Positions 4,654 through 24,375 of a DNA stretch of 64,000 bases are shown here, piece after piece. The translations under genes were made by a program, and so were the position numbers. This stretch comes from Candidatus Eremiobacterota bacterium (GTDB lineage: Bacteria; Vulcanimicrobiota; Vulcanimicrobiia; Vulcanimicrobiales; Vulcanimicrobiaceae), in NCBI GenBank assembly GCA_019240525.1, contig JAFAYE010000001.1, positions 2,081,300 through 2,145,299 on the forward strand. Direction: 5' to 3'. How positions within the stretch are numbered: the stretch's first letter is position 1; every line of letters starts with the position of its first letter. The notes under the pieces are model-generated. The model saw nothing but the letters and a program-made list of their open reading frames with translations, had not been told where the DNA came from and did not search any database.

Positions 4654-4872
4654 ATGTTTGACGTGGGTGAGTCGTTGCGCGAAGCTTTTTCGGATGCGCG
4701 ACTGCGTTTGGCGCAAGCGCAGCGTGCCGTAGCCGTCGCGAATTTCGGGAAGGAGCACGGCCGGTCTGCCGATGCGGCGCTAGCGCAAACCGCTGGAGCC
4801 GCAATCTTTAGCGAGGCATTGCTCGCTACGGAGCGTGCCCGCTTCGCCGAGATCAAAGCCGTGACGAAATGA
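4654..4872 (+). CDS. Small protein in the flgB position; possible degenerate FlgB rod protein
   Basis: A 72-residue protein that opens the flagellar-type secretion gene run and overlaps flgC by 4 bp (ATGA). The position immediately before flgC is where flgB normally lies. The segment LAQAQRAVAVANFGKE loosely resembles the FlgB N-terminal helix (L..RQQ..ANNIAN), but the TPGYK signature is absent. The length is about half of a normal FlgB (about 130 residues). A reduced rod component is the best guess; an unrelated small chaperone or coiled-coil protein is possible. No recognised domain. Confidence 0.45.
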   Translation: MFDVGESLREAFSDARLRLAQAQRAVAVANFGKEHGRSADAALAQTAGAAIFSEALLATERARFAEIKAVTK

Positions 4873-5201
4873 ATCTGGATCTACTCGACTCGGCGGCGAG
4901 CGGAATGGACGCGCAGCGCGCGGCACTCGACGTTGCGGCGCGCAACGTTGCCGCCGCGGAGGCCGCCGGGCCCAACGGCGACTACGAACGTATGATTCCG
5001 GTCTTTCGCGTCGCTGATGATCCTGAGGGCGAAGCGCATGTCGATTTCGCCGGGACGCGCATCGAACGCGGCACGAACGTCGACATTCTCACCGAAATGA
5101 TCGGCGTAATGAATGCATCGCGCGCCTACGAATCCGATGCCGCCATTTTTGACGTCGGCAAGCGGCTTGCCGAAAAGACGCTCGACTTGGAGCGTTTATG
5201 A
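4869..5201 (+). CDS. flgC: Flagellar basal-body rod protein FlgC, shortened
   Basis: Proximal rod protein. The N-terminal SAASGMDAQRAALDVAARNVAAAE and the C-terminal TEMIGVMNASRAYESDAAIFDVGKRLAEKTL match the two helices that pack in rod proteins of the FlgC type. At 110 residues it is shorter than usual (about 135-150), and the middle is trimmed. It overlaps both neighbours by 4 bp, so translational coupling is likely. In a flagellar or flagellum-derived secretion system it would form the base of the rod above the MS ring. Confidence 0.85.
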   Translation: MNLDLLDSAASGMDAQRAALDVAARNVAAAEAAGPNGDYERMIPVFRVADDPEGEAHVDFAGTRIERGTNVDILTEMIGVMNASRAYESDAAIFDVGKRLAEKTLDLERL

Positions 5202-5464
5202 AGGTCGAAATGCTAATCCCGGATGCGCCGCCGGCGGAGTCCGCGCAGCGGGGCGACGGCGCGGCGTTCGCACGCGCACTCGATGCGCTCCACGGGCTTT
5301 TCTCGGATGCCTCGCAAGCCGAAGACGACTTTGCGTACGGACGCGGGACCTTGCAGGCCGCAGTTTACGAACGGGCACAGGCCGACGTCGCGCTCTCCGT
5401 CGCCACCGCCGCGGCGCAGCGTTTGACGCAGTCCGTGCAGTCCATTCTCAACATGCAAGTCTAG
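5198..5464 (+). CDS. fliE: Flagellar hook-basal body complex protein FliE
   Basis: Links the MS ring and export gate to the rod. The C-terminal DVALSVATAAAQRLTQSVQSILNMQV is a textbook FliE ending. The length of 88 residues is slightly short. The ATG at 5198 overlaps the flgC stop, and fliF follows 3 bp after the stop. Confidence 0.9.
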   Translation: MKVEMLIPDAPPAESAQRGDGAAFARALDALHGLFSDASQAEDDFAYGRGTLQAAVYERAQADVALSVATAAAQRLTQSVQSILNMQV

Positions 5465-5467
5465 ATC

Positions 5468-6952
5468 GTGCTGGGTATCGCGCAGCTGCTCGCCCGATGG
5501 AAGGCGGTGCCGAAAGCGGCGCGGTTGCTCGTCGGTGGCTTCGTCCTCGTTGCGCTCGGCATTGCGGTTGCCGCCGTCATCGTCGGACACCCCGCGCGCA
5601 ACGCGCTTTTCGCGGCGCCGCTCCACCCCGAGCAGCTCGCGGAGGTTGAAGAACGTCTGGCAGGCTGGAGCGTCGCGTTCACGCCGACTGCCGAAAACGT
5701 GATCGTCGATGCGAGCCGGCGAAACGATCTGTTGCTGCGACTCTCGCTTGCCGGCGTTCCACATCCGCATCTGTCGAGTACGGACGAGGCGCTGGCGAAC
5801 GTTGGCGTTCTGACGCCGCAAGCGGTCATTGACGCGCAGACACGCGCGGGCCTTGCCGGCGATATCGAATCGGGATTGCGCGGCATCGACGGAGTAGACG
5901 ACGCGCGCGTCATCGTTGCGCCGGCGAAAACGGGCGAGTTCGCCGACGAGTCGGCGCACGATGCGAGTGCCTCCGTGCGACTTCGATTGCGCGCCGGCGC
6001 ACGGCTTTCGCGCGATGCAATCGCCGGAGTTCGAGCGTTCGTCGCCGCCAGCGTTCCCGAGCTCGAGCCGGCACGAGTAACGATTCTCGACGATCGTGGC
6101 GTTGCGCTCGGAACCGATGTCGCGGGGGTCGACGCGGCAGACGACGACACGGCAGAGGTTCAGCGCTCGTTGCAATCCGCGCTCGACACCGCCTTCGGGG
6201 CTGGTGCTGCCATCGTCCGCATTCGCTCCGAATACGACGCCGCCCGCACGTCGCGACACGACATCCGCCGGTCGCCGATCCTCGGCACGGGCGTCGAACG
6301 CGTGCGCCATAGCGAAAGTTACGACGGCGGCGGGAAACGCTACCGCCGCACGGACGAAGGCGAAGACCGCGGAAGCGAAACGCACGAGTCCCTCGCACAG
6401 ATCCCCGCTGGTGCGCTCAAACGGTTGTCGGCCGCAGTCTTCGTCGATCAGAGCCGCGCGCTCGATCTCGTTAAAGTGCGCGGACTCGCTGCAGCCGCGA
6501 TCGGCTTTGACGCTGCGCGCGGTGACGCGCTGGCCGTCGAGGCGGTCGACTTCCACCGCGATCCGCTCCCGCGAGCAAATCCGTGGTTGATGCTCTACGG
6601 AGCGATCGCTCCGATGATGCCCGCGGTTGTCGTCGCGCTTGCGCTCGTCGTCTGCGCGCGTTTCGCACTCTCGCCCGTCGCGGCACTCGTGCAAACGGTG
6701 CTCGAGCGCGGCTTGGTCGAACGCACGACGAAAGCTGCCGCCACGTTTCCGCCGGCACGCGTGCGGAGTCTGCTCGAACGCGAACCGCCGCACGCAGCGG
6801 CGGCCATCATAAGCGCGCTGCCGGCCGCGACCGCGACGGCGGTGCTCGAGCTCTACCCGCCGCACGAGCGCGAGGCGATCGTCGCTCGAATGCAACGGCG
6901 CCATTCGCCGTTGCTCGCCGACGCTCAGGAACTACTGCGCCGCCGTGTCTAG
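5468..6952 (+). CDS. fliF: MS-ring protein FliF fused to a FliG middle-domain-like segment
   Basis: Inner-membrane MS-ring protein of 494 residues. TM1 is at about residues 18-37, and the ring-building domains follow (EQLAEVEERLAGWSVAFTPT, then TQTRAGLAGDIESGLRGIDGVDDARVIVAP-like sequence). TM2 lies near 375-397 (LMLYGAIAPMMPAVVVALAL). Instead of a short FliG-binding tail, residues of about 420-480 read RVRSLLEREPPHAAAAIISALP, then TATAVLELYPPHEREAIVARM. This resembles the FliG middle (ARM) domain with its EHPQ-type motif (here EPPH). The FliG C-terminal torque domain is absent, and no separate fliG is present nearby. The start is GTG at 5468, 3 bp after fliE. Confidence 0.85.
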   Translation: MLGIAQLLARWKAVPKAARLLVGGFVLVALGIAVAAVIVGHPARNALFAAPLHPEQLAEVEERLAGWSVAFTPTAENVIVDASRRNDLLLRLSLAGVPHPHLSSTDEALANVGVLTPQAVIDAQTRAGLAGDIESGLRGIDGVDDARVIVAPAKTGEFADESAHDASASVRLRLRAGARLSRDAIAGVRAFVAASVPELEPARVTILDDRGVALGTDVAGVDAADDDTAEVQRSLQSALDTAFGAGAAIVRIRSEYDAARTSRHDIRRSPILGTGVERVRHSESYDGGGKRYRRTDEGEDRGSETHESLAQIPAGALKRLSAAVFVDQSRALDLVKVRGLAAAAIGFDAARGDALAVEAVDFHRDPLPRANPWLMLYGAIAPMMPAVVVALALVVCARFALSPVAALVQTVLERGLVERTTKAAATFPPARVRSLLEREPPHAAAAIISALPAATATAVLELYPPHEREAIVARMQRRHSPLLADAQELLRRRV

Positions 6953-7412
6953 TGCGTTCGTGCCGCTTGCACTTTTCTTGCGTCCGGTCACGCGCGCAGC
7001 CGCCGCCGAGGAAGCGCCACCACCGCCCGCGGTCGCCGCGCCGGTTTGCGGCGACATCGATGAAGCGTTGCGCGCTGCACGGCGATTTCGCGCAGGACTA
7101 CAAGACGCGATCGATGCTGCCGTCGAGGAACTCTTGCCCGCAATTGCGCGCGACGTGCTCGCGCGCGAGCTTCAGATCGCCGCCGCCGACGTCGCCGAGA
7201 TCGTGCGCGGCGCCCTGGGTTCCGATTCGCACGACGTCACTTCCATTCGCGCACATCCGGACGATCTCGATGCGCTCTGCGCGGTCGAGTTCGAACGCAT
7301 TCCCGACGCGACGTTGAGCCGCGGGAGCGTTCGGCTCGAACTGCGCAGCGGCACGATCGATCTAACGCTCGACGCGCGTCTCGACGCCGTTCTTCGCGCG
7401 CGGGTGCAGTGA
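6945..7412 (+). CDS. fliH: FliH-like stator of the export ATPase
   Basis: A 155-residue protein between fliF and fliI with the character of FliH/SctL. It has an Ala/Pro-rich N-terminus, a helical segment (EALRAARRFRAGLQDAIDAAVEELLPAIARDVLARELQ), and a C-terminal beta/alpha domain ending in LSRGSVRLELRSGTIDLTLDARLDAVL, like the FliH C-terminus that caps FliI. It is shorter than typical FliH (about 220 residues). The GTG start overlaps the fliF stop, and the end overlaps fliI by 4 bp. Assigned largely by position and the C-terminal pattern. Confidence 0.7.
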   Translation: MSSAFVPLALFLRPVTRAAAAEEAPPPPAVAAPVCGDIDEALRAARRFRAGLQDAIDAAVEELLPAIARDVLARELQIAAADVAEIVRGALGSDSHDVTSIRAHPDDLDALCAVEFERIPDATLSRGSVRLELRSGTIDLTLDARLDAVLRARVQ

Positions 7413-8456
7413 CTGCGCCGCAGCGCCTCACATTAGGCACCTGCGCCCTGGGTCGCGCAATTGACGCCCGCGGCGCGCCCCTCGACCGCGGACCGTTGCT
7501 GCGAGGCCGAAGCGTTTCGCTGGAGTTGCGGCCGCCTCGACCGAACGAGCGAATCGCAATCGCCGCTCCGCTCTGGACGGGAACTCGCGCGATTGACGCG
7601 TTGCTGACAATCGGGCGAGGCGCGCGCGTCGGCATTTTTGGGGCGCCCGGAGCTGGTAAAACGACGTTGCTGGAGTCGATTGCGCAGGGTTGCGCGGCCG
7701 ATGCGACCGTTGTTGCGCTCGTCGGTGAGCGCGGACGGGAAGCCCAGCGTTGGATCGAACGGCGCGACCATCGCACGACAGTCGTTTGCGCGACCAGCGA
7801 CCGTCCGGCCCGGGAACGCAGCGCCGCCGCGCACGTCGCAGCCGCCCACGCCCGGGCCTTGCGCGAGCGCGGATTGCACGTGCTCTTCGTGCTCGATAGC
7901 TTAGCACGCTGTGCTGCGGCCTGGCGCGAACTGCGTGTCGCCGAGGGCGAAAGCGCCGGACGAGGGGGATATCCGCCGGGCGTCTTCGCGCAAATGGCCC
8001 AGCTCGTGGAAGTCGCCGGCTCGCTGGATTGCGGATCGATTACACTGGTTTGCACCGTGATCAACGACGGCGACGATCGGGATCCGGTCAGCGAGGCGGC
8101 GCGCTCGCTGCTCGACGGACACGTCGTGCTTTCGGCGCGTCTGGCCGAGGCCGGATGGTTTCCCGCCGTCGACGTTCTCGCCAGCGCGAGCCGTACGATG
8201 GATGCAGTTGCCGATGAGTCGCATCGGCATGCGGCTCATATGGTCCGTCGCGCGCTCGCTCTGCTCGATCGGACCGCCGATGCTCGCTCGTTGGGCATCG
8301 ATCCGGATACCGATGCCGCGCGTGTGGCAATGGCGGCTGAAAGCGGCCCTCGAAGCCTTCTTGCGCCAAGAGCAGGCGTGCGCGCACGATGAGACGCTCG
8401 CGGCGCTTGCGAGCCTTGCAACGCGGCTCGTTCTCAACTCGGCAATTTCGCGATGA
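7409..8456 (+). CDS. fliI: Export ATPase FliI, lacking most of the N-terminal domain and frameshifted near its 3' end
   Basis: Flagellar/T3SS-type F1-like ATPase. The P-loop GAPGAGKTT is at residues 78-86, Walker B LFVLDS at about 159-164, and GRGGYPPGVFAQMAQLVEVAG matches the FliI catalytic core. The beta-barrel N-terminal domain is mostly missing (only about 60 residues precede the core). The first frame stops at 8392 after an atypical tail. From about 8335 the +1 frame reads LKAALEAFLRQEQACAHDETLAALASLATRL, the expected FliI C-terminal helices, and stops at 8456. A 1-nt indel (real, programmed or an assembly error) is therefore likely. The uninterrupted protein would be about 348 residues. 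Confidence 0.85.
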
Positions 8457-8490
8457 GCGCGCGATCATCGCCGTTTGCAATCATCGTGCG

Positions 8491-9057
8491 ATGATGACGC
8501 ATCAGCTCGAAGTGAGCATTCTCGCGGCGCCGTTGGCGAGTATCGACCGCCGAGTTCTTTCGCAGGCGTGGTACTCGGCACTCGGTTTCGTGCCCAACGC
8601 GTTGCCGGCGCGAGGCTGCAGAAATAACGCTTGCGGTGTTTCCGGCCGCTCATTTCCACATCGCGACACCGTCGAACCGGCGAAGCGGCTCGCGACTCAA
8701 CTTTTCCGTACCAGTATCGTGCCGGCGAAGCAGCCGCCACGCCGCGGGAAAGACGAACACGATGTGCGTCGAGTTCGCACGCGCTGCGCGAAAGGCGCGG
8801 CACTCGAGCAACGAATCGAACGGGTCTTTTCTAACGCGAGCTTCAGTCCGCGACGAGCGACCTTTTCGCTGGGCCGAGGATCGGCTCGCATCCATGTGAT
8901 CCTTCAAACGCAGGGATCGCGAACAACCTTGCTCGCACTCTGCCGGCCCGAGATGCGCGCGCTCGTTGCCGAGGCGCTGTCACACGCGCGCATTGCATTG
9001 GCCGCACGAAACATCGGCGTGGAAATGCGCCCCGTCGGAGGGCGTGAATGTTCTTAA
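8491..9057 (+). CDS. Divergent FliK/SctP-like protein (probable secretion ruler/switch)
   Basis: A 188-residue protein starting at ATG 8491 (a second ATG follows at 8494); upstream codons in frame look non-coding. The N-terminal 130 residues are Arg-rich and unrecognised. The end (ARIHVILQTQGSRTTLLAL, then EMRALVAEALSHARIALAARNIGVEM) has the strand-strand-helix pattern of the FliK/SctP C-terminal domain, which contacts FlhB to switch substrate class. Its place between the ATPase and a rod/hook protein supports that role. It overlaps the next gene by 10 bp. FliJ is the alternative by position, but this is not a simple coiled coil. Confidence 0.5.
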   Translation: MMTHQLEVSILAAPLASIDRRVLSQAWYSALGFVPNALPARGCRNNACGVSGRSFPHRDTVEPAKRLATQLFRTSIVPAKQPPRRGKDEHDVRRVRTRCAKGAALEQRIERVFSNASFSPRRATFSLGRGSARIHVILQTQGSRTTLLALCRPEMRALVAEALSHARIALAARNIGVEMRPVGGRECS

Positions 9058-9770
9058 ATCCCAACCTCAGCGGAGCGCTCGACCGCATCGCCGAGCGGGC
9101 CGCCGACGTGCGCCGTGCCTATACGCCGGGCGCGATCCCGCGGAACGACGACGTTGCAACCTCGTCAAGCGTGGCCGACTTCACGTTGGATCCGCTCGCC
9201 GTCGCACTGCCCGACGCGACATACCTTGTTACGAACGAGGGGGACGGCACGCGAACCTACACGCGCAACGGCGCCTTGCATCTGGGAGAGGACGGCCTTT
9301 GTGACGCCGACGGAAAGCTCATTTTCGGCGTTCGCACGCCCGGCGCCGCGCTCGCACCACTCTGCGTCGATGCCGTCGACGAGGCCTTGGGAGGCGTGCG
9401 CGACGCCTCGATCGAGCGCGACGGCACGCTCGTCTATCTTCGTGAAACGATCGACCCGCGCAGTGGAAATCACGAATCGCAACGCGTCGTCGTGGGACGC
9501 GTCGCACTCGCGCGATTTCCGGCCGGCACTCGACTCGAAACGAGCGACGGCAACCATTGCGCCGCGCCGCCCGGCGTAACTGCGCACGTCGGCGTTCCCA
9601 ACACCGAGGGCTTTGCGCCGTTGCTGCCGATGCACCGCGAACGCAGCCGGATTGATGTCAATGAAAGCCTCGTTCGCCTCAAGGAAGCGTATCTTGCCTT
9701 CGACGCGCTGCAAGCCGCGGAAACAGCGAAGGGGCGACTGGGCAAGACGGCGATGGATCTGCTCAAGTGA
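9048..9770 (+). CDS. FlgF/FlgG-like flagellar rod or hook protein
   Basis: A 240-residue axial protein. The stretch YLVTNEGDGTRTYTRNGALHLGEDGLCDADGKLIFG matches the FlgE/F/G family signature (FTRDGsF...dG.LvtadG). A later segment (SIERDGTLVYLRE, VGRVALARFPAGTRLETSDGN) matches the D1/D2 region. The C-terminus (RLKEAYLAFDALQAAETAKGRLGKTAMDLLK) replaces the usual QRAYEAN-type helix with a diverged one. It is the only distal-rod/hook-type protein in the window. It overlaps fliM by 4 bp. Confidence 0.8.
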   Translation: MFLNPNLSGALDRIAERAADVRRAYTPGAIPRNDDVATSSSVADFTLDPLAVALPDATYLVTNEGDGTRTYTRNGALHLGEDGLCDADGKLIFGVRTPGAALAPLCVDAVDEALGGVRDASIERDGTLVYLRETIDPRSGNHESQRVVVGRVALARFPAGTRLETSDGNHCAAPPGVTAHVGVPNTEGFAPLLPMHRERSRIDVNESLVRLKEAYLAFDALQAAETAKGRLGKTAMDLLK

Positions 9771-10573
9771 AGTCGCTGGCCTTTGACAAGGCCTGCCGGC
9801 AAAACGATGCGGCGAACGGCCGTCGCGTGCGCCGCGCGCGCTTCGAGACCCATTCATCGCTGCCGATCGGTGCCGCGTGCGTGGTTGCAAACGCCGTGCG
9901 TGAAACGCTGAGCTCGCTGCTGGCAGCGCCCGTCATCATGCGCCTGGTCGAGCCTGCCGTACCTCCGCCCGTCGCATGGAAGGCGATCGAACGCGACGCG
10001 CGCCTCTATTGCGTGCGCGCAAGCATTGCCGACGCTGCGATCATCGTGAAGCGGCCCGATGCAATCGCGCTGGCGGCCGCGCTGTTCGGAGAATCCAGCA
10101 CTTGCGCCGAAGAGCGCGCGCTCTCGCCGCTCGAATGCGATGTCCTCGATCGATTGGTCGGCGTGATTGCCACCAACCTCAGCGCGGTCTGCGGGGCCCG
10201 CGACGGGCATAGCGTCGAACGCGTCGCTGCGATTGACGCCTTCACTACCTACTTCGACCTGCTCGTTGACGAGCCGGTGCACGGAAGAATCGGCATCGCG
10301 CTTTCGCGTGAACCCTCAGCGGAGTCCGGTCCGAAGCTGGACGTTGCTCATTTGGCCGGCGTGAGACTCAAGCCCCGCGCATTTCTTGCGCTGGGAACGA
10401 TGGAAGCGAGCGCGATTGCGCGTTTCGACGTCGGATCGATCGTTTCAATGAGCGCGGCAACATTCGAGCGCGGCGTGCTTTCGCTGGCCGGTCGTCGGCT
10501 CGCTGCCGGAGCCTGCGGCGTTACCAACGGGCGATTTGCTTTGTCGGTTGCGGCCGTGCGCGAAGCGATGTGA
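9767..10573 (+). CDS. fliM: C-ring protein FliM/SctQ-like
   Basis: Cytoplasmic ring/sorting platform component of 268 residues. LSPLECDVLDRLVGVIATNLSAVC fits the FliM middle domain, and the end (FERGVLSLAGRRLAAGACGVTNGRFAL) fits a SpoA fold. It lacks the short acidic N-terminal peptide by which FliM binds CheY, and it is shorter than motility-type FliM (about 330). In these respects it is closer to a secretion-only SctQ. It overlaps fliN by 4 bp. Confidence 0.7.
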   Translation: MKSLAFDKACRQNDAANGRRVRRARFETHSSLPIGAACVVANAVRETLSSLLAAPVIMRLVEPAVPPPVAWKAIERDARLYCVRASIADAAIIVKRPDAIALAAALFGESSTCAEERALSPLECDVLDRLVGVIATNLSAVCGARDGHSVERVAAIDAFTTYFDLLVDEPVHGRIGIALSREPSAESGPKLDVAHLAGVRLKPRAFLALGTMEASAIARFDVGSIVSMSAATFERGVLSLAGRRLAAGACGVTNGRFALSVAAVREAM

Positions 10574-10815
10574 CGGAGAACGATACCATGGGCCTGCTGA
10601 TGCAGGTCCCGCTGCGCCTCACGGTTGCCATTGGCAGCTGCACGATGCCGGTCGCCGAGATCCTCAAGCTCGGCGCCGGCTCGATTGTGGAGCTGGATCG
10701 CAGCGTTAACGTTCCGGTCGATCTGCTCGTGAACGAAAAGCCGATCGCTCGCGGCGAAATCGTTGCCGTAGAAGAGAGTTTCGGCTTGCGCATTACGGAG
10801 TTGCTCGCGCTGTGA
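10570..10815 (+). CDS. fliN: C-ring protein FliN (SpoA domain)
   Basis: An 81-residue, single-SpoA-domain protein. MQVPLRLTVAIGSCTMPVAEILKLGAGSIVELDR, then NEKPIARGEIVAVEESFGLRITE, is the compact FliN core. There is no N-terminal extension. The GTG start at 10570 overlaps the fliM stop, and the stop overlaps the fliP start (GTGA). Confidence 0.93.
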   Translation: MTENDTMGLLMQVPLRLTVAIGSCTMPVAEILKLGAGSIVELDRSVNVPVDLLVNEKPIARGEIVAVEESFGLRITELLAL

Positions 10816-11441
10816 GCCACGCAGCCATCCCGCTCGATCTCCTGGTTACCTTGACGATGCTCTCGCTCGTCCCGTTGATCCTGGTCATGTGCACGTCGTT
10901 CGTGCGCATCGTCGTTGTCCTGTCGCTCGTTCGCTCTGCCATCGGAGCGTCGGCGCTTCCACCGAATTCGGTGCTTACGGGGCTGGCGCTTGTCTTGACG
11001 TTGGTGGTGATGGCCCCAACGGCGCAGCGCATCGGCCGTGAGGCGGTCGATCCTTACTCGCGCGGTACCATCACGCCGTCGCAAGCGCTCGCGCGCGGCG
11101 CTGCGCCGCTGCGATCGTTTATGCTCCGCCAGACACGAGTCGCCGACGTGGCGGTCTTCGCGCGCATTGCGCGGCGGCCGCCCGAACCCGTACAGCGTGT
11201 TCCAATCACCGTGCTCGTTCCGGCCTTCGTCGTCGGCGAGTTGCGGAGTGCCTTTGCCATTGGGTTCGCCCTCTATTTGCCCTTCGTGGCCATCGACTTA
11301 GCAGTTGCGGCAATGCTGATGGGGCTGGGCATGATGATGCTCAGTCCGCCGGTGGTCTCGCTTCCGGTGAAGTTATTGCTCTTTGTTATGGTCGACGGCT
11401 GGGCGATGCTCTGCGGAGGCGTTGCGGCAAGCTTTCGATAA
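10812..11441 (+). CDS. fliP: Export gate protein FliP
   Basis: Core export-gate membrane protein (SctR type), 209 residues. It has hydrophobic segments at both ends, the conserved TSFVRIVVVLSLVRSAIG near residue 30, the FMLRQTR region, and the C-terminal VPAFVVGELRSAFAIGFALYLPFVAIDLAVAAMLMGLGMMMLSP. There is no long signal peptide. The start is GTG at 10812. The next export-gate genes resume only after metF. Confidence 0.97.
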   Translation: MSHAAIPLDLLVTLTMLSLVPLILVMCTSFVRIVVVLSLVRSAIGASALPPNSVLTGLALVLTLVVMAPTAQRIGREAVDPYSRGTITPSQALARGAAPLRSFMLRQTRVADVAVFARIARRPPEPVQRVPITVLVPAFVVGELRSAFAIGFALYLPFVAIDLAVAAMLMGLGMMMLSPPVVSLPVKLLLFVMVDGWAMLCGGVAASFR

Positions 11442-11452
11442 GGCCAGACGCC

Positions 11453-12355
11453 ATGCGCATCAGCGACGCATTGGCAACGCAGCGGCCGTTCTTCTCATTT
11501 GAATTTTTTCCGCCCAAGGATGACGAAGGCTCCCGACAGCTGTTTGAGACGATCGCAGCGTTGCGGCCGCTGCGCCCGGCATTCGTTTCCATCACCTACG
11601 GTGCCGGCGGTTCCACCCGGGCGCGAACCGTCGCGCTCGCGAAGGAGATCCAACAACACATCGGTCTCACAGTCGTGGCGCACGTCACCTGTATTGGCGC
11701 AGACCGCGGACAACTACGAACGCTCTTTGACGACTTGGCCCGCGCCGGTATCGAGAACGTCCTGGCGCTGCGCGGCGATGCGCCGCCGGGTAGCGAGTTC
11801 AAAGCGGCGCCCGGCGGCTTTTCGCACGCAAACGAACTGATCGCGATGTTGCGCCGCAACTACGGCTTTTGCATCGGCGCCGCGTGTTATCCCGAGAAGC
11901 ATCCCGAGGCCGCGAGTTCTAACGACGATCTCGCTAACCTCAAGCTCAAGGCCGATGCGGGCGCCCAATTTCTGGTTTCCCAGCTATTCTTCGACAACGA
12001 GCTTTTCTTCGAGTTCGAGCGCCGGACGCGCGCAGCCGGCATCACCCTGCCGATTCTTCCCGGGCTCATGCCCATCACCAACTACGCCCAGATCCAGCGT
12101 TTCGTCGCCATGTGCGGCGCGAGCATCCCGCCGAAGCTGCGCGTCGAAATGGAAGCCCGCAAAGGCGACGTCAAAGCGGTCGAGGATCTCGGGGTTGCGT
12201 TCGCGTCGATGCAGGCGCTCGGACTGCTGCAAGCCGGCGCGCCGGGCATTCATTTTTATACGTTGAACCGCTCGCCCGCAACCCGCGCGATCGTATCGTC
12301 GCTGTTGGCCGCCAGCGCCTGGCGACCGGCATTTCAAGCTTCAACAACCCGGTAA
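11453..12355 (+). CDS. metF: 5,10-methylenetetrahydrofolate reductase MetF
   Basis: FAD-dependent reduction of methylene-THF to methyl-THF for methionine synthesis. Visible family blocks are FSFEFFPPKD with the catalytic Glu, SITYGAGGSTR, VVAHVTCIGADR, ENVLALRGDAP, KADAGAQFLVSQLFFDN, LPGLMPITNY, and APGIHFYTLNRS at the end. The length of 300 residues is normal. It lies 11 bp after fliP and 34 bp before fliQ on the same strand, so it is embedded in and probably cotranscribed with the secretion genes, although it has no known role in secretion. Confidence 0.97.
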   Translation: MRISDALATQRPFFSFEFFPPKDDEGSRQLFETIAALRPLRPAFVSITYGAGGSTRARTVALAKEIQQHIGLTVVAHVTCIGADRGQLRTLFDDLARAGIENVLALRGDAPPGSEFKAAPGGFSHANELIAMLRRNYGFCIGAACYPEKHPEAASSNDDLANLKLKADAGAQFLVSQLFFDNELFFEFERRTRAAGITLPILPGLMPITNYAQIQRFVAMCGASIPPKLRVEMEARKGDVKAVEDLGVAFASMQALGLLQAGAPGIHFYTLNRSPATRAIVSSLLAASAWRPAFQASTTR

Positions 12356-12389
12356 CGATCCCGTAACTGCACGCCGGTACCGTTGAGAG

Positions 12390-12677
12390 GTGGAGGTCCT
12401 CGACGGATTGCTGCACGACGCGCTCGTAACCACAGCGACGCTTGCGCTTCCCGTGCTTGGCGTCGCGGCACTCGTCGGCACGGCGGTCGCCGTGGTGCAA
12501 GCGGCAACGCAAGTGCAAAAACAGACGCTCACCTTGCTGCCGAAAATCGTGGCCGTGGGTGCCACCGTAGCATTCTTCGGCTGGCCCGCGATGCATCTCG
12601 TCGCCGAACTCTTCGAACGATCGCTGGCAGCGATTCCGAGCCTGACCGCGGTTCCGGTACAGACTTCGCCGTGGTAA
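12390..12677 (+). CDS. fliQ: Export gate protein FliQ
   Basis: A small two-helix export-gate protein (SctS type), 95 residues. LPVLGVAALVGTAVAVVQAATQVQKQTLTLLPKIVAV is the conserved FliQ core. The start is GTG at 12390 after GAGAGGTGG. The C-terminus is slightly longer than usual. It overlaps the fliR start by 7 bp. Confidence 0.95.
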   Translation: MEVLDGLLHDALVTTATLALPVLGVAALVGTAVAVVQAATQVQKQTLTLLPKIVAVGATVAFFGWPAMHLVAELFERSLAAIPSLTAVPVQTSPW

Positions 12678-13375
12678 CGGGGTTACTCGTCTTCGCGCGT
12701 TGTGTTGGCTTCGTTTTTCGCGCTCCGGGCTTCTCGCATCCAAGCGTGCCCTCGAGCCTGCGCGCCGGCCTTGCGGTGGTCCTTACTGGCGGAATTCTCT
12801 CCGGGCGACACGAGGCCGTTCGCGCCTTCGACGATGCCGCGCTGGTCGCGGCGCTGCTGACTGAGTTTCTGATCGGCAGCGCGCTTGGAATGACGGCGTC
12901 GCTGGTGTACGACGGTGCCTACGCCGGCGGTCGCATCGTCGACGACTACGTCGGCGTGCGCGCAATTGCGCCGAGTTTGCAGCTTGTCGCACCGAGCGGC
13001 TTCGGTCGGGTCTGGTCGCTCGCATTGACCGGTGGGTTCTTTCTCTCGGGCGCGTATCGTCCCGCGTTGCTCGGCTTTGCGCAGAGTTTCGCGCGAATGG
13101 CACCGGGAGCGCCACTGCAGCGGACGGGGTGGATTGAGTACGCGAGCGCGTTCTCGGAAACGATCGTCGTCGTCGCATTGCAGATTGCGGCACCGGCGTT
13201 AGCGACGGCATTCGTCGCTCAAATCGCACTCGGCGCGCTGTCGCGCGTGATTCCGCGCTTCGGCAGCTTCACGCTTGCGTTCCCACTAACGTTTGCCGCG
13301 GCGCTGATCGCGACGGCGATTTGTATGCCGGTGATGGCCGTTCACGTACGGGAACCCCTGCTTTCGATTCCGTGA
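12671..13375 (+). CDS. fliR: Export gate protein FliR
   Basis: Membrane export-gate subunit (SctT type), 234 residues with about six hydrophobic segments. Recognisable parts are LVFARCVGFVFRAPGFSHPSVPSSLRAGLAVVL near the N-terminus, LLTEFLIGSALGMTASLVYDGAYAGGRIVDD in the middle, and ALATAFVAQIALGALSRVIPRFGSF near the C-terminus. GTG at 12671 is chosen because it places the N-terminus at the family position; the longer open frame upstream is shadow sequence over fliQ. Confidence 0.92.
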   Translation: MVTGLLVFARCVGFVFRAPGFSHPSVPSSLRAGLAVVLTGGILSGRHEAVRAFDDAALVAALLTEFLIGSALGMTASLVYDGAYAGGRIVDDYVGVRAIAPSLQLVAPSGFGRVWSLALTGGFFLSGAYRPALLGFAQSFARMAPGAPLQRTGWIEYASAFSETIVVVALQIAAPALATAFVAQIALGALSRVIPRFGSFTLAFPLTFAAALIATAICMPVMAVHVREPLLSIP

Positions 13376-13382
13376 TGCTTGA

Positions 13383-14390
13383 ATGAGCGATGCGTCGGAG
13401 AAGCCGTTCGAGCCGACGCCGCATCGAATCCGCAAGGCCCGACGTGAAGGAAACGTCGCCCGCTCGAGCGAGTTCGGGGCGAACTGTTCCTTCGCAGCCG
13501 GCGCTTTGGCGCTCGCGGCCGTCGCACCGGTACTCGGCGTGGTAACTCACCGGGCGTTCGTTGCTGCCGCGAGGCAGAGCGTGAAAGAAAGCTGGCTCAT
13601 CGTCGCCGTCGCATTGTTGCCGATCGCTGCTGCCTCGATCGCCGGCGCGTTCGGTAACCTCTTGCAGAACGGCGGGCTGATGACCGTAGCGATCGGGCCT
13701 CAGTTCGGGCGCATCAATCCCTTCGAAGGTATCAAACGCATTCTCTCGCGTGAAACGGCGGCGCATTCACTGCGCTCGTTCCTCGCCTTCATCTGTGCTG
13801 TCGGCGCGATGGCGCCGTTCTTTGCGTGGGGCGGTTCGGTGGTCGTGCAGGCCACGACGCTCAACGATGTCGCGGTCTCTGCTTGGAGTGCCGCGCGCGG
13901 GGTGATGACCGCGGCGTGCATTGTCGGCTTCGCTTTCGCCGTTGCCGAGTACGGTGCGGCGCGCGGCACTTGGCTACGGCGCCTGCGCATGAGCTTCGAC
14001 GAACGCAAACGCGAAGCTCGCGAGGAAGAAGGCGACGCGATAACCCGAGGCCGCCGCCGCGCGCTGCATCGTTCCGTATTGCGCGGCGGTCTTCGCGCTC
14101 TGAGCAAGGCGGCGTTCGTCGTCGCCAATCCCGAGCATGTCGCGATCGCATTGCAATACCGGCCGCCGGAGATTCCAGTGCCGCGGGTGCTCGTACGCGC
14201 CGCAGACTCGCTGGCGATGCGCGTGCGCGCGGCGGCGAAAACGTACGGCATTCCGGTCGTCGAGAACGTTTGGCTCGCGCGAGCCCTCTACCGCGATGCG
14301 CGCGCCGGCGAGGCGATCCCGCACGTCCACTACGTCGCCGTCGCCGAGGTCGTCTCGGCGCTGTTGCGTGCCAACGAGATCGCGGGATGA
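13383..14390 (+). CDS. flhB: Export switch protein FlhB
   Basis: Export apparatus protein that controls substrate class, 335 residues. It begins KPFEPTPHRIRKARREGNVARSSEF, as FlhB does, then has four hydrophobic segments and the cytoplasmic domain (VAEYGAARGTWLRRLRMSFDERKREAREEEGD). The self-cleavage site, normally NPTH, is NPEH here (ANPEHVAIALQY). The Asn-Pro pair needed for cleavage is kept. It overlaps flhA by 4 bp. Confidence 0.96.
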   Translation: MSDASEKPFEPTPHRIRKARREGNVARSSEFGANCSFAAGALALAAVAPVLGVVTHRAFVAAARQSVKESWLIVAVALLPIAAASIAGAFGNLLQNGGLMTVAIGPQFGRINPFEGIKRILSRETAAHSLRSFLAFICAVGAMAPFFAWGGSVVVQATTLNDVAVSAWSAARGVMTAACIVGFAFAVAEYGAARGTWLRRLRMSFDERKREAREEEGDAITRGRRRALHRSVLRGGLRALSKAAFVVANPEHVAIALQYRPPEIPVPRVLVRAADSLAMRVRAAAKTYGIPVVENVWLARALYRDARAGEAIPHVHYVAVAEVVSALLRANEIAG

Positions 14391-16444
14391 GCTCGCAAAA
14401 ACGGGCGGTGTATGCGTTTGCCGCCATTTTATTGACGGTCGTGGCCATTCTGATCGTACCCCTGCCGCCATGGCTGCTGGACGCGTTGCTCGGGATTAAC
14501 ATCTTTGGTTCGGCGCTGGTTTTGCTGCTCGCCGTAACCGTTGAGGATCCGCTCGAGTTCTCGGCGTTTGCGCCGGCATTGCTGGTCGCCACGCTCTTTC
14601 GGCTCTCCCTCGACGTGTCGGCCACGCGTCTAATTTTAACCTCGGGCTCGACGCCGGGCGCCGTCGGCTCGATCATTCCAGCGTTCGGCGCGTTCGTGGT
14701 TCATGGAAATCTCGTTGTCGGCATCATCGTTTTTGCGATCTTGGTCACCATCCAGTTCGTCGTCATCGCCAGCGGCTCGCAGCGTGTGGCAGAAGTTGCG
14801 GCGCGGTTCACCCTCGACGCCATGCCGGGAAAGCAGATGGCGATCGATGCCGACGTGCACGCGGGCGCGCTCGACGCTGAAGGCGCGCGCCGTAAACGCG
14901 AAACGGTGCAGCGCGAGGCCGACTTCTACGGCGCCATGGACGGCGCCGGAAAATTTGTGAAGGGCGACGCGATCGCCGCGCTGGTGATCGTCGCGCTCAA
15001 TCTGACCGGCGGCATCGTTGTTGGTGTGGCCTATCACGCGCTCTCGCCGCTCGACGCGCTCAACACCTTCGCGCTGCTTTCCATCGGCAACGCGCTCGTC
15101 ACGACGCTTCCGGCATTTCTTATCTCGACGGGGATGGGAATGATGGTGACGCGAGTCGCGTCCGAAGGATCGCTGGGCGTCGACCTCGCCGCACAGCTCT
15201 TCGCGCGACCCGACGCGTTGCGCAGCGCCGGCGGCCTGATGCTCGCGCTCGCGCTCGTCCCGGCGCTGCCGCGTCCGCTCTTTTTCGTGCTCGGCGCGAG
15301 CGCGTTTTCGATTGCCCATGCGGCGCAACGGCAACGCAAACGACGCGAAGCCGAGTCAAACGAAACGCGCGAGCGCATCAGGCGAAATGCTATGCGCCGG
15401 CCGGAGCTCGCGCTCGGCCTGGTCGGCGTCGACGCCATCTCGATCGACATCGGCGCCGACCTAGCGAATCTGCTCGCAGCACCGCTGGCCGACGCGCTGC
15501 TCGATAGGATTGGCGAAGTTCGCCGCGCGCTCGCCGCCGACATCGGCGTCGTGCTTCCCGGCGTACGACTGCGTGACGACCTTTCACGCGATCCGCACAG
15601 TTACCGCATTCGAGTTCGCGATCGTCTGGTCGCGACAGGTCGTCTCGATCTCGAGCGCGTGCTGGCGGTGGCCGGCGAGACGGTGCTCGAACGATTGAAC
15701 GGCGCCATCGAACGAGAGCCGGTCTATGGCTTGCCCGCCGCCTGGATCGACCCGGCGGCACGCGAACTCGCGGCCGACCTCGGAGCGCTCGTCTTCGATC
15801 CGATCTCCGTCTTGGGTTCGCATCTGGCGGAGATCTCACGGACGTATGCCGCCCAGCTTGTGGGACGTCAAGAACTGCAGACGCTGCTCGAGCATTTGCG
15901 TTCGACGATGCCGGCGTTGGTCAAAGAAGTGGGAAGCGACGCGTTGCCATTGCGCGCGTTCCACCGCGCCGTTACGCTATTGTTGCGCGAGGGCGCGTGG
16001 CCGCGCGATCCGGTCGCCGTGATCGAGGCGATGCTCGAAGCGAACACGCACGATCCGGCCGAGCTCGCCGAAGCGGCTCGCCGAGCAATCGTGCCCGATC
16101 TGTTGCGCCGTCGCGGCATCTCGCAACTCGAGCCGGCGATCTTCGAACCCGAGTTCGAAGGGAGACTGGTTGCCGCATGGTGCCGGTACGGTACCGACGG
16201 GCTCGAGCCGAGAACCGCACTTGCGCTGCGCGCCCGCATCGAAGGTTATGCTGCAACGACACCGCGTGACCGCGCGGCAGTCGTCTGTACCGCCGCACTG
16301 CGTCCGGTGCTGGCCGACTTCTTGCTGCGTTCCGGTATTCGCATCGGCGTCTACGCGTTCGGCGAATTGCCGAACGAGGTGAAGCTGGCGCCCGCCGAGG
16401 TGCTCGCGGAAGTCGAACCGAACGCGCTGGCGGCATGCACCTAA
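14387..16444 (+). CDS. flhA: Export apparatus protein FlhA
   Basis: The large export-gate protein (SctV type), 685 residues. The N-terminal half has about eight transmembrane segments, with the conserved VEDPLEFSAFAPALLVATLFRLSLDVSATRLIL and the FHIPEP-like cytoplasmic loop (RFTLDAMPGKQMAIDADVHAGALD, READFYGAMDGAGKFVKGDAIA). The C-terminal half is the nonameric substrate-docking domain. ATG at 14387 overlaps the flhB stop; the longer open frame upstream is not FlhA-like. It is the last secretion gene in this run. Confidence 0.97.
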   Translation: MSSQKRAVYAFAAILLTVVAILIVPLPPWLLDALLGINIFGSALVLLLAVTVEDPLEFSAFAPALLVATLFRLSLDVSATRLILTSGSTPGAVGSIIPAFGAFVVHGNLVVGIIVFAILVTIQFVVIASGSQRVAEVAARFTLDAMPGKQMAIDADVHAGALDAEGARRKRETVQREADFYGAMDGAGKFVKGDAIAALVIVALNLTGGIVVGVAYHALSPLDALNTFALLSIGNALVTTLPAFLISTGMGMMVTRVASEGSLGVDLAAQLFARPDALRSAGGLMLALALVPALPRPLFFVLGASAFSIAHAAQRQRKRREAESNETRERIRRNAMRRPELALGLVGVDAISIDIGADLANLLAAPLADALLDRIGEVRRALAADIGVVLPGVRLRDDLSRDPHSYRIRVRDRLVATGRLDLERVLAVAGETVLERLNGAIEREPVYGLPAAWIDPAARELAADLGALVFDPISVLGSHLAEISRTYAAQLVGRQELQTLLEHLRSTMPALVKEVGSDALPLRAFHRAVTLLLREGAWPRDPVAVIEAMLEANTHDPAELAEAARRAIVPDLLRRRGISQLEPAIFEPEFEGRLVAAWCRYGTDGLEPRTALALRARIEGYAATTPRDRAAVVCTAALRPVLADFLLRSGIRIGVYAFGELPNEVKLAPAEVLAEVEPNALAACT

Positions 16445-20943: not shown

Positions 20944-22936
20944 AGGACTGCCTGCGCCGACGCCCTCGGAGGCCGCATTTGAAGCGGCCTTTTGCGATTT
21001 TTCGTCGGCGAGCGAGTCGGCGAGCGAATCGACGAGCGCGTTCCTCGATCGCGTCTTTGCCAAAAGCGACGAGTATCTCCAGGATCCCTATTCGACCATC
21101 GGCGACGCGCCGCGATTCCATACCAAACTTGCCGGGGTTTCCTTCGAAGGGCGGCAGGACATCATCGCCGGTCTGCGCGCCGATGCCGCGCTCAAGCTCC
21201 TGCGCCAACCCGATAATCCGCACGACCGCAACGCGATCGCGGTGCACTACGGCGATCTTCAGCTCGGTTTTTTCAACAAGCGTCTGGCGGCGCACATCGC
21301 GCCCCGTATGGATGCGGGTGCGCGCTATCGCGCGCGTGTCGCCTCGCTCACCGGCGGACCGCAATACGCCAAGAATCGCGGCGTGAACGTTTTCGTCGAG
21401 CGCGAGGCGGATCTCATGGTCGGCGCGCATGGGCGATCTTCTACTGGCATTCTCGCTGCACGCTCGCCCGATCCCGGAGCCGATTCGCAGGACTCCGCCG
21501 CGGCGGTGCAGGCGGCGTTGATCGGCGCCGCGCAGCCGCACGAAGCGCAGCGAGCGGTACTCGAGCGTATCGCCGCCGGGAAGAACACGCTCGCCGTCAT
21601 GGGGACCGGTCGCGGTAAGTCGTTTTGCTTTCAGTTTTCCGCCGCAATGCGCGCCTTTGCCGGCTCCGGCAAGACGTTGGTCGTCTATCCGTTGCGCGCC
21701 CTGGCCAACGATCAATACGAGGCTTTGCGACGCACGCTCGAGCCGCTGGGGCTGCGTTGCTTTCGTGCCAACGGCTCGATCGATCACGACGAGCGAGCGC
21801 AGCTCTTCGAGGCGCTCAGTCGGGGATCGTGGGATCTCGTTCTGGCGACGCCGGAGTTTCTGGAGTTTCATCGCGATGCGTTGCGCGGGGTAAGCGCGCC
21901 GTCGTTCGCGGTGATTGACGAGGCGCATCACGTTCATGAATCGCGGCACCGGCCCGCGTATGCCCGCTTAGCCACGACCGTGCGCGGCCTGGGCAATCCG
22001 CAGATACTCGCGCTCACCGCAACGGCCGGCGAGGAGAGCTTCCGCCGCATCGTCGAGGAGTTGCGGATCGAGGCGTGGGTCATCGACCCGACCGTACGCG
22101 AGAATCTACACGTCGTCGATGCTCGCGAAACGCGAAACAAGAACTCGTACTTGGTCGAGCTCTTCGGCCGTGAGGGGTCGGGTGAGAAGGGCATCGTCTA
22201 TTGCAACTCGCGCACGGAAGCGACCGGCGTTGCTCGGCGGCTGCGTAAAGCGCTCGGCAACGATGTCGCCTTCTATCACGCGAAGATGCCCAACGCCGAT
22301 CGGCTCGAGGTCGAACGCCTCTTTCGCCAGGGCGAGTTGCGAGTGGTCGTCGCAACCTCCGCCTTCGGCGAAGGCATCGATTTGCCCGACGTTTCCAATG
22401 TCGTGCTCTTTCACCTCAACTTCGATTTCGGAGAGTTCAATCAGCAAGCGGGACGCGCCGGACGTAACGGCGCGCCGGCGCAAATTCACCTGCTCTATGG
22501 CCAACGAGATCGCGGGCTCAACGACTTCCTCATCGATCTCGACGCTCCAGCGCTGCCGATGTTGCGCGAACTCTATCGCGGAATCAAGAGCCTGGCGGGT
22601 AATGGCATTCTCCGCGCCGGCGACGCGGATATTGCGAGCAAGCTCGACGGCGAGCGGTTTCGCGACCGGCATGTCGGCGCCGCGCTGCGAATCTTTGCCG
22701 ACTCAGGGCTCGTCGAACTGGGCGATGATGACGAAGGGCGCTTCGTGCGCTTTCGTCCGGTCAGTGGCCGCATCGAAATGGAGCGCAACGCGCGTTACGT
22801 CGAAGGTGAGGCCACGCGCGAGTCGTTTGCGCGCTTCGCCGAAATCGCGTTGCGCGCGCCCGCCGAAACCCTGGAGCGGATCATCAATCGGCCGATTTAT
22901 CCGTCGAGCGTGCCGCTCCAGCGCGAGGGAATCTAA
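20837..22936 (+). CDS. HIRAN domain fused to a RecQ-like DEAH helicase
   Basis: Putative DNA helicase. A HIRAN domain (about residues 93-165: KLAGVSFEGRQDIIAGL, LLRQPDNPHDRNAIAV, LGFFNKRLAAHIA), a fold that binds DNA ends in other proteins, precedes a superfamily 2 helicase core. The core has Walker A MGTGRGKS, DEAH box VIDEAHH, LALTATAGEE, and motif VI QQAGRAGRNG. The C-terminus is a winged-helix-like region. The frame is open from ATG 20837, but the first 36 residues overlap secF and look like shadow. A hairpin terminator follows secF, and no ATG/GTG/TTG lies between 20944 and the HIRAN domain, so the true start is unresolved (CTG 20947 is one option). Role in DNA repair inferred. Confidence 0.8.
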   Translation: MRRWRKGTKKSPSISTTSLRQVPQTPSSAKKGPSTKGLPAPTPSEAAFEAAFCDFSSASESASESTSAFLDRVFAKSDEYLQDPYSTIGDAPRFHTKLAGVSFEGRQDIIAGLRADAALKLLRQPDNPHDRNAIAVHYGDLQLGFFNKRLAAHIAPRMDAGARYRARVASLTGGPQYAKNRGVNVFVEREADLMVGAHGRSSTGILAARSPDPGADSQDSAAAVQAALIGAAQPHEAQRAVLERIAAGKNTLAVMGTGRGKSFCFQFSAAMRAFAGSGKTLVVYPLRALANDQYEALRRTLEPLGLRCFRANGSIDHDERAQLFEALSRGSWDLVLATPEFLEFHRDALRGVSAPSFAVIDEAHHVHESRHRPAYARLATTVRGLGNPQILALTATAGEESFRRIVEELRIEAWVIDPTVRENLHVVDARETRNKNSYLVELFGREGSGEKGIVYCNSRTEATGVARRLRKALGNDVAFYHAKMPNADRLEVERLFRQGELRVVVATSAFGEGIDLPDVSNVVLFHLNFDFGEFNQQAGRAGRNGAPAQIHLLYGQRDRGLNDFLIDLDAPALPMLRELYRGIKSLAGNGILRAGDADIASKLDGERFRDRHVGAALRIFADSGLVELGDDDEGRFVRFRPVSGRIEMERNARYVEGEATRESFARFAEIALRAPAETLERIINRPIYPSSVPLQREGI
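20970..20993 (+). terminator. Likely intrinsic terminator after secDF
   Basis: AGGCCGC (20970-20976), 7-nt loop, GCGGCCT (20984-20990), then a short TTT run. It sits 27 bp after the secF stop. It also lies within the open frame of the helicase gene, so it may instead attenuate that gene or be a coincidence of coding sequence. Confidence 0.45.
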
Positions 22937-24183
22937 GCGATAACCCGCGTCATCGCGCCCTGATCGACCTTGCGATAGAAGTCGTTATTGGTTTCGCTCA
23001 CTCCGGCCGATGCCCAGGGATCAATTTCGCGGCACGACGTTGGCAAGTGGATCGTCGGGCCTGCGGCGTCGGAATAGTCGGCGCCGCCGAACGGCGCAAA
23101 GTGAGCGCTTTCGCGGTGCGCCAAGACCAAATTTCGGACGGCGGCGCTGGCGGCGCGTGCGTCGGCCCGCACGGTTGCATCGAGTCGGCCGTCACTTGCA
23201 AGCGTATCGTAAAACGCAATCGCCGGGCGATCGGCGTGCCACGGCAGGTTCTTTTCGTCGAGTGGCGCGCGTACCATACCATCGATTGCGCGCGCATCCT
23301 CGCGCAGCACATCGCGAACGCCCAAATCGCGCGCTTGCGCGGCCGCGTCGTCGTTGAGGCGTCGAATCGCGGCTTCGGCGCGGTCAATTTTCGCCGAATC
23401 GAGGTCGAGTACGTCGAACGCGGCGGCCGGGCCGAATCCGCCGAACGCGCCGACGTCGTACTTCGTGCGCATCACGTCGCCGACGATGGCCTTCGCCATT
23501 TGTACGGGTTCGTTTTCGTGCGACGCAATGGCGTGAGCGACATTGCTTGGAACCCCCGGCGCGAGCATTGTCTCGGGGCTGGCCGCTAGCCACTTGACGT
23601 TGGCGTGCGATAACGCATCGGCGAAGCCCATGGTATCCATCAAGCATTGATTGGCGACGACGCCGTCGACGCCACGCCCTGCGTCCTCGGGGTGCTCGCG
23701 CGCATGCAGCGCAACTCCGTCGGAAATCGCTTTGGCGATGTCCGGCATCGTCATGCACGACCCGTCCCTCGTCTCCAACCCGCCGCCGTCGCCGCCGCCG
23801 TGATCCACGAGGTCGATCCAGGTCTGCTTTGCGCCCGACGCCTCGGCATTGTCGAGGGTCGTGGCGACGAATGCCGACAAATTTCGTTCGTCACTCATGT
23901 TGTGCGCTTTGAGGCTGTCGACGGGGCCGAGGGCGCCGTCGGAAATTGTGAATTGATCGGTGTGGAGTCCGTGCCGCGTGTCGCCCTGAGCTTGCCGGGC
24001 GGCACCGGGGCGTGTTGCGGTCGTATCCTCCACGGTAAACTGGATGCGCGAATCGCTCGCACTGGTTCGCAGCGCCTGTGAGACGACGCTCTCTTGAATC
24101 GGATCGAGGTTATTATCACCGTCGCGGTAGATGCCGAACTCCAAAGAGCGGCGCGAGGGCGTAGACGTAACGTTCTGCAGCAT
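22933..24183 (-). CDS. Clostripain-like (C11 family) cysteine peptidase without signal peptide
   Basis: A caspase-fold protein of 416 residues. FGIYRDGDNNLD near residue 17 matches the clostripain N-terminal strand. DLVDHGGGDGGG puts the catalytic His at about 128, and VVANQCLMDTMGFADAL puts the catalytic Cys at about 180. The ATG at 24183 is chosen because GGGAGG (complement of 24188-24193) lies 4-5 nt ahead; the ATG at 24198 is weaker. No signal peptide or TM is visible, unlike secreted C11 enzymes, so it is cytosolic or exported by another route. The end overlaps the convergent helicase stop by 4 bp. Specificity (Arg/Lys in relatives) is not established here. Confidence 0.75.
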   Translation of the reverse strand: MLQNVTSTPSRRSLEFGIYRDGDNNLDPIQESVVSQALRTSASDSRIQFTVEDTTATRPGAARQAQGDTRHGLHTDQFTISDGALGPVDSLKAHNMSDERNLSAFVATTLDNAEASGAKQTWIDLVDHGGGDGGGLETRDGSCMTMPDIAKAISDGVALHAREHPEDAGRGVDGVVANQCLMDTMGFADALSHANVKWLAASPETMLAPGVPSNVAHAIASHENEPVQMAKAIVGDVMRTKYDVGAFGGFGPAAAFDVLDLDSAKIDRAEAAIRRLNDDAAAQARDLGVRDVLREDARAIDGMVRAPLDEKNLPWHADRPAIAFYDTLASDGRLDATVRADARAASAAVRNLVLAHRESAHFAPFGGADYSDAAGPTIHLPTSCREIDPWASAGVSETNNDFYRKVDQGAMTRVIA

Positions 24184-24375
24184 GAAACCTCCCGGCATAG
24201 TGAGCCGGAGAGCTTACTGCGACGGCTGGGCGGCATGGCTAGGCCCTTGCGGCGGCTACGAAACGCATAGGCGCCCCGTCCTCGGCTTGCTAGCATCAGA
24301 GCGAAGCACTATGCGCATGAAGCATCGAACAGGCGTTCGGAATGTAGGCGTTCCTTTTCGGGAAACTACCGGCTC

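Follow-up and report, generated by a model that had tools for sequence, protein, structure and literature searches.

What does a bacterium do with the base of a flagellum when the filament is missing? The question is raised by a flagellar-type export operon in a 64,000-nt stretch of DNA (the window, whose positions serve as coordinates unless a contig or locus is named) from the genome (G000; 2.81 Mb, 5 contigs, 97% complete) of a member of the phylum Vulcanimicrobiota/Eremiobacterota. The operon, at 4654–16444 with all genes on the plus strand, encodes a reduced FlgB, FlgC, FliE, FliF, FliH, FliI, a FliK-like protein, an FlgE/F/G-like protein, FliM, FliN, FliP, FliQ, FliR, FlhB and FlhA. A first-pass annotation of the DNA had taken this run for a flagellum-derived export machine and not a motility locus. 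Our analysis supports that view, and we put the probability that the operon belongs to a working, rod-only, non-motile flagellum-derived type III export machine at about 0.72.

An operon of flagellar type

The gene run is real: Pfam, NCBIfam and HHalign identify its members, FliK weakly (Table 1). Neighbouring genes overlap or almost abut, as the annotation had described, except where metF (MTHFR) separates fliP from fliQ. When NCBIfam models were compared, FlhA, FliP, FliQ, FliR, FliF and FliN scored higher with flagellar than with injectisome models (for FlhA, 600 bits with TIGR01398 (FlhA) versus 483 bits with TIGR01399 (SctV)), and FliP and FliN exceeded the curated cut-offs. FlhB and FliI scored marginally higher with injectisome models, with all scores far below cut-off.

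Several members are shortened, as had been recognized: FlgB has 72 aa, FlgC 110, FliI 327 and FlgF, which is encoded elsewhere, 117. Direct HHalign comparison of the 72-aa open reading frame at 4654 with FlgB gave E = 0.04, too weak to identify it. The form found in the class-sister lineage (f3; L063 8845–9174, 109 aa) matches FlgB models at 7e-8 and links the two, and it is solely through this bridging form that we infer a shrunken FlgB. FliI is without its N-terminal domain, and alignment with relatives places its altered C-terminal end beside a local deletion that also took out a lytic transglycosylase gene, which relatives carry between fliI and fliK. The ATPase retains its Walker A (GAPGAGKT), Walker B (LFVLDS) and GER motifs, and the genome has other SLT-domain genes, such as a 174-aa SLT paralogue at C1:1543664. 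In some relatives' operons, a gene for a retropepsin-like aspartyl protease follows the lytic transglycosylase gene (L037 3295–4863, Pfam PF13650 8e-20; also L034, L035, L038, L040 and L043). The protein at the usual flgE position is a short member of the FlgE/F/G family and matches the Pfam FlgE/F/G D1 domain below cut-off (2.8e-4).

Table 1. Genes of the flagellar-type export operon, with the evidence for each assignment
Feature	Coordinates	Strand	Evidence
Reduced FlgB-like proximal rod protein, 72 aa	4654..4872	+	Position 5' of flgC kept across the host family (f1)
FlgC-like rod protein, 110 aa	4869..5201	+	Pfam Flg_bbr_C 8.7e-6; HHalign to FlgC E = 4e-19
FliE, rod/MS-ring adaptor, 88 aa	5198..5464	+	Pfam FliE 2e-6
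FliF MS-ring protein with C-terminal FliG middle-domain stub (~6752–6895)	5468..6952	+	Pfam YscJ_FliF 1.4e-23, FliG_M 1e-5
FliH, ATPase regulator	6945..7412	+	Pfam FliH 1.3e-8
FliI export ATPase, no N-terminal domain, C terminus altered	7409..8392	+	Pfam ATP-synt_ab 1e-59
FliK-like protein, likely true start ~8494	8389..9057	+	Operon position; HHalign of C-terminal 70 aa to FliK E = 0.002
FlgE/F/G-family rod or hook-type protein, at the usual flgE position	9048..9770	+	NCBIfam FlgEFG subfamily 4.5e-10; HHalign to FlgF 1.5e-21
FliM-like switch-ring protein	9767..10573	+	HHalign to FliM E = 2.4e-10; Pfam FliMN_C 0.003
FliN	10570..10815	+	NCBIfam fliN 91.0 versus cut-off 84.05 bits
FliP export-gate protein	10812..11441	+	NCBIfam fliP 228 versus cut-off 217 bits; SctR model 189 bits
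metF (MTHFR), housekeeping gene inside the operon	11453..12355	+	Pfam MTHFR 5e-90
FliQ export-gate protein	12390..12677	+	NCBIfam fliQ 1.8e-14
FliR export-gate protein	12674..13375	+	NCBIfam fliR 4e-25
FlhB, NPEH at the autocleavage (NPTH) position	13383..14390	+	Pfam 1.8e-71
FlhA, divergent clade	14387..16444	+	Pfam FHIPEP 1.8e-191

A second locus, 83 kb upstream (C1:1997393–2001971; L053 8894–13475), holds FlgF, FlgG, an FlgJ-like rod cap (HHalign 4.6e-6) and a FliA/WhiG-type sigma factor, and this FlgF–FlgG–FlgJ–sigma locus occurs in genomes that have the system. Expression is probably under the system's own FliA-type sigma factor; a sigma-28 promoter motif sought upstream of flgB and flgF gave no good match in common. 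The host copy of the locus carries an insertion between flgG and the FlgJ-like gene (L053 9986–12644), bordered by a short repeat of the 3' end of flgG. Judged by sequence, the parts are those of a membrane and supramembrane (MS) ring, a FliM/FliN switch-ring platform, an export gate, an ATPase and a rod (FliE, FlgB-like, FlgC, FlgF and FlgG) with an FlgJ-like cap. The annotation's term 'stripped-down' calls for a qualification: the machine is more than a bare export gate, its base and rod being complete, with part of the rod genes and the sigma factor in the second locus, and a remnant of FliG is kept.

A FliG remnant on the MS ring

FliF ends in a segment equivalent to the first half of FliG's middle domain (Pfam PF14841), and HHalign comparison of this segment with canonical FliG gave E = 1.2e-5, whereas negative controls stayed at or above 0.04. 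In a single-sequence AlphaFold (AF2) model of the tail (mean predicted local distance difference test score 72.9), the top PDB fold matches were FliG and FliG–FliM complexes, with E-values of only 0.04–0.7; a sequence search of the tail against the PDB found no relative. The EHPQ motif of FliG binds FliM, and the stub keeps E-P-P-H at its place. The annotation had listed fliG as absent, which is right for the torque domain throughout the genome but overlooks this middle-domain stub fused to FliF. A similar arrangement is seen in NCBIfam NF004606, a model as long as chlamydial FliF (341 aa), which matches FliF at 81–153 and the FliG middle domain at 294–337. This model probably holds the same fusion, and the FliF–FliG stub may have arisen more than once.

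Filament, hook and motor genes across the genome

Profile searches of the whole genome found a single FlhA and a single FliF, and no flagellin over the cut-off; a sub-threshold flagellin-like match at C1:508343 proved to be an EmrA/HlyD coiled-coil membrane-fusion protein beside a major facilitator superfamily pump. The hook cap FlgD and CheW were not found in the genome, nor were FlgE and FlgK, as the Flg_bbr_C search picked up only FlgC, FlgF and FlgG. Also missing from it is the FliG C (torque) domain (PF01706), which is present in 7/7 genomes with a detected canonical FliF and in none of the others, and the P-ring protein FlgI, whose 8 carriers all have canonical flagellar genes. Flagellin, motor and hook genes were likewise not found in 11 other non-flagellated relatives, whereas the same searches (MotA_N excepted) found them in 7 flagellated relatives. 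As expected of positive controls, family members with a canonical FlhA do carry such genes. The absences that the annotation had noted in the window thus extend to the genome for flagellin, FlgD, FlgE, FlgK and CheW, and the search that could have overturned its proposal turned up no fliC, motAB or hook genes in the rest of the genome. No secretin or needle gene was seen in the operons inspected, and no genome-wide search was made for either.

Across the family, flagellin goes with canonical FlhA. Among 60 members scored for both, 28 have flagellin and canonical FlhA, 3 flagellin alone, 1 canonical FlhA alone and 28 neither (Fisher p ~1e-12); the 29 genomes without flagellin include 23 with divergent FlhA alone and 5 with no FlhA. 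Many genomes carry the system alongside an intact canonical flagellum.

Conservation, selection and loss

The machine is present in the host, a non-motile bacterium of soil type, and in almost every relative. A check of synteny that the annotation had proposed showed the same operon order and site (rplM-rpsI-DUF3810 ... secD-secF) in the host family (f1) and in order-level relatives (f2). In f3 the same parts are split into three loci, two of which still adjoin rplM-rpsI and secD-secF. Between genus members, the ratio of nonsynonymous to synonymous substitutions (dN/dS) is 0.07–0.40 for all operon genes tested, indicating purifying selection, with dS near saturation and the values therefore rough. 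Functional residues are retained as well: FlhB has NPxH in 21/22 loci (NPTH in most), FlhA keeps the invariant R94, R147, R154, D158, K203 and D208, and the FliI Walker motifs are kept in f1 and f2 where a full open reading frame was read, the strict pattern being unmatched in f3. The FliK-like gene is kept in the loci of 14 relatives.

A few relatives have lost the system. In G026, G079, G075 and G106 the site is intact and metF, which is not part of the machine, stays in place with no machine genes at all, and in G044 machine genes occur only as fragments. In G026 and G044, FlhA, FliF, the sigma orthologue and every Flg_bbr_C rod protein have disappeared together despite the separate loci. 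G075 and G106 retain the sigma orthologue, so the link between sigma factor and machine is not absolute. Because gene order and site are shared across family and order, dN/dS is low, catalytic residues are kept and losses are clean or visibly shredded, we take the machine to be conserved and not decaying.

In a scan of named genomes, close copies among the matches listed came only from 'Candidatus Eremiobacterota' (L080 and L082) and a bin locus (L081); the remaining matches listed were at most 45% identical. One carrier is G008 (L033 and L069; loci 68–70% GC). Vulcanimicrobium alpinum WC8-2 has a 3.50-Mb genome of 68.4% GC, a typical gram-negative outer membrane covered with lipopolysaccharide, and type IV pili, by which it moves; negative staining revealed no flagella and its genome has no flagellin gene (PMC9758169). 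G008 is very probably this same strain, so that V. alpinum very probably carries the system. Outer-membrane genes have been reported more broadly across the phylum (PMC6664022).

A clade apart from the hosts' own flagella

Trees of FlhA and FliP, which the annotation had suggested, place the divergent copies in a clade of their own. For FlhA, those from f1, f2 and f3 fall into a single clade (Shimodaira–Hasegawa-like approximate likelihood-ratio support, SH-aLRT, 100), apart from both the same family's flagellar FlhA and SctV, and its sister (SH-aLRT 99) is the FlhA of a second flagellar-type operon in Xenobia-like members of the phylum. The FliP tree also unites the divergent copies (SH-aLRT 100) and leaves the Xenobia relation unresolved. 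An approximately unbiased (AU) test rejected (p = 0.0006) the grouping of divergent FlhA with the flagellar FlhA of the same family. The system therefore did not branch off recently from that flagellum. Membership in the injectisome clade is not supported by the tree; the AU test on FlhA data alone did not reject a grouping with SctV (p = 0.195). We take the system to be inherited vertically within the class, independently of the true flagellum that occurs in some relatives.

The Xenobia-like operon of G018 (L160/L161) has a near-identical order, flgB-flgC-fliE-fliF-(fliG)-fliH-fliI-(fliJ)-SLT-fliK-flgE/G-like-fliM-fliN-(fliO)-fliP-fliR-flhB-flhA, likewise without motAB or flgD in the operon, and has in common an N at FlhA position 249. 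It differs in that its FliG is a separate protein with both a middle and a C domain, and in having genes at the FliJ and FliO positions. Such an order with a separate FliG suggests the route by which the present form was reduced.

Ten large genomes from other classes of the phylum (G009, G017, G018, G027, G029, G033, G039, G045, G049 and G051) each hold 7–9 FlhA/SctV-family genes, far above the usual number, some of which are probably injectisomes or further derived systems. One FlhA-like gene of the Xenobia clade (L048 12337–14442; L049 is of the same clade) lies amid unrelated genes, with no other export-gate genes within ~12 kb upstream or 4 kb downstream.

A proposed rod-tipped conduit and its alternatives

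We propose the following model for a working, non-motile export machine. FliP, FliQ, FliR, FlhA and FlhB would assemble in the inner membrane within the FliF ring, and the remnant of the FliG middle domain at the end of FliF would anchor FliM and FliN, making them a stationary sorting platform and not a rotor. FliH and FliI would bring unfolded FliE and rod subunits for export, while the FlgJ-like cap and a lytic transglycosylase would allow the rod through the peptidoglycan. The rod would stop at the outer membrane because P-ring and hook are not made, and FliK and FlhB may still switch specificity toward late cargo. The end structure would be a periplasm-spanning conduit for protein export, and we infer that export runs into or across the envelope through this rod-tipped channel.

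A decaying relic of a lost flagellum, retained by chance, would account for the shortened FlgB, FlgC, FlgF and FliI and for the transglycosylase deletion in the host genome. Ten sampled family members are without the gene in the FlhA scan, so that reduction and loss do happen. A relic is nevertheless the least probable of the readings that we weighed, and a very improbable one, given the purifying selection, retained order and active-site residues, the clean or shredded character of true losses with metF kept, the coexistence with intact flagella in many genomes, and the rejection by FlhA data of descent from the family's own flagellum. Only marginally better placed, and still improbable, is the reading that the machine serves as a base for 'hat' particles of the inner membrane or for membrane nanotubes and not as a secretion channel. 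Core proteins of the flagellar type III secretion system (fT3SS) have been tied to such a hat-like structure and to nanotubes (PMC9380563), but these involve the core gate, whereas here conservation extends to rod proteins, an FlgJ-like cap and, in relatives, an enzyme that lyses peptidoglycan, suggesting a structure that crosses the wall.

Two further alternatives are readings of the machine's use that overlap with ours, so that our confidences in the readings do not sum to 1. By analogy with the Myxococcus T3SS*, which works without a needle or secretin and is required for prey lysis (PMC12075869), the system might act in predation on, or competition with, other cells by exporting lytic proteins where the cells touch. 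Both retain a gate, ATPase and sorting platform without an outer ring, and Vulcanimicrobiota are soil and surface bacteria; non-flagellar (NF) T3SS and T3SS* of Myxococcus are, like our system, reduced, vertically inherited in their own group and conserved in order. Myxococcus systems are, however, without FlgB, FlgC, FliE and other rod proteins, and without FlgD, FlgE, FlgK and FliG (PMC3459982), whereas rod proteins are present here; the absence of FliE, FlgB and FlgC that marks NF-T3SS (Abby and Rocha 2012) does not apply, as all three are present, FlgB in reduced form. We know of no predation in the phylum, and consider this use possible but doubtful. Slightly less likely in our estimation is that a flagellar export system was kept to assist secretion and motility by type IV pili. 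In Lysobacter enzymogenes OH11, which has no flagella, the retained FT3SS works and is required both for twitching and for the secretion of toxins (PMC9927559), and V. alpinum also moves by type IV pili (PMC9758169). The Lysobacter genes, though, are what is left of the bacterium's own flagellar genes after recent loss, whereas the present clade is ancient, separate and class-wide.

Several observations weigh against our preferred reading of a working export machine. No cargo candidate was found in the operon or in relatives' inserts (the genes inserted in L033, L034, L041 and L050 were considered and look metabolic), and no outer-membrane exit was identified. The FliK assignment is weak. With FliI truncated at both ends and the transglycosylase deleted, the host copy may work less well than those of relatives, although FliI dN/dS is still 0.17 despite the truncation. 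MotA_N had no match in the genome, but this is a weak test, as the model reached cut-off in only 2/7 flagellated relatives.

Other features of the window

Adjoining genes for a PqqD-domain protein and a radical SAM/SPASM protein (51549–52887) suggest a modification pair for a ribosomally synthesized and post-translationally modified peptide. An AAA+/Lon-C protease gene (55464–57404) lies between those for ribosomal protein L9 and a dnaB-like protein, and a clostripain-family (C11) peptidase-like protein is encoded at 22933–24198, slightly under the Pfam cut-off.

Discussion

The system resembles a flagellar basal body in its FliPQR–FlhAB gate, FliHI, FliF, FliM, FliN, FliE, FlgB/C/F/G rod, FlgJ-like cap and FliA-type sigma factor. 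It departs from a flagellum in that filament, hook cap, FlgE/FlgK-type Flg_bbr_C proteins, P-ring, stator, chemotaxis genes and torque domain were not found in the genome, that its FliG is a stub on FliF, and that its FlhA and FliP stand in their own clade. As in chlamydiae with their flagellar paralogues FliF, FliI and FlhA, the host is non-flagellated, but chlamydiae retain only a handful of flagellar genes alongside a complete injectisome (PMC2830194). The chlamydial paralogues, the Myxococcus T3SS* and the retained Lysobacter FT3SS are precedents for reuse without motility. No description of this rod-only machine was found in the literature searched, of which our coverage was incomplete; it is a variant of the flagellar type III system that we have not found described before, rather than a new kind of machine.

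In our judgement, the chances are about even that the flagellum was reused here once more, independently of the injectisome, with an ancient phylum-level paralogue becoming a fixed rod-tipped secretion conduit in which FliG is a docking stub on the MS ring, served by its own sigma factor and kept in nearly the whole of a diderm class, swimming or not. The system is relevant to how secretion systems evolve from flagella, because it retains the rod missing from injectisomes and has lost the torque parts. V. alpinum, a cultured relative without visible flagella that is very probably a carrier, makes it amenable to experiment. Base and rod alone are under selection across the class, in some members beside true flagella, providing a natural experiment on the role of a flagellum that does not turn.

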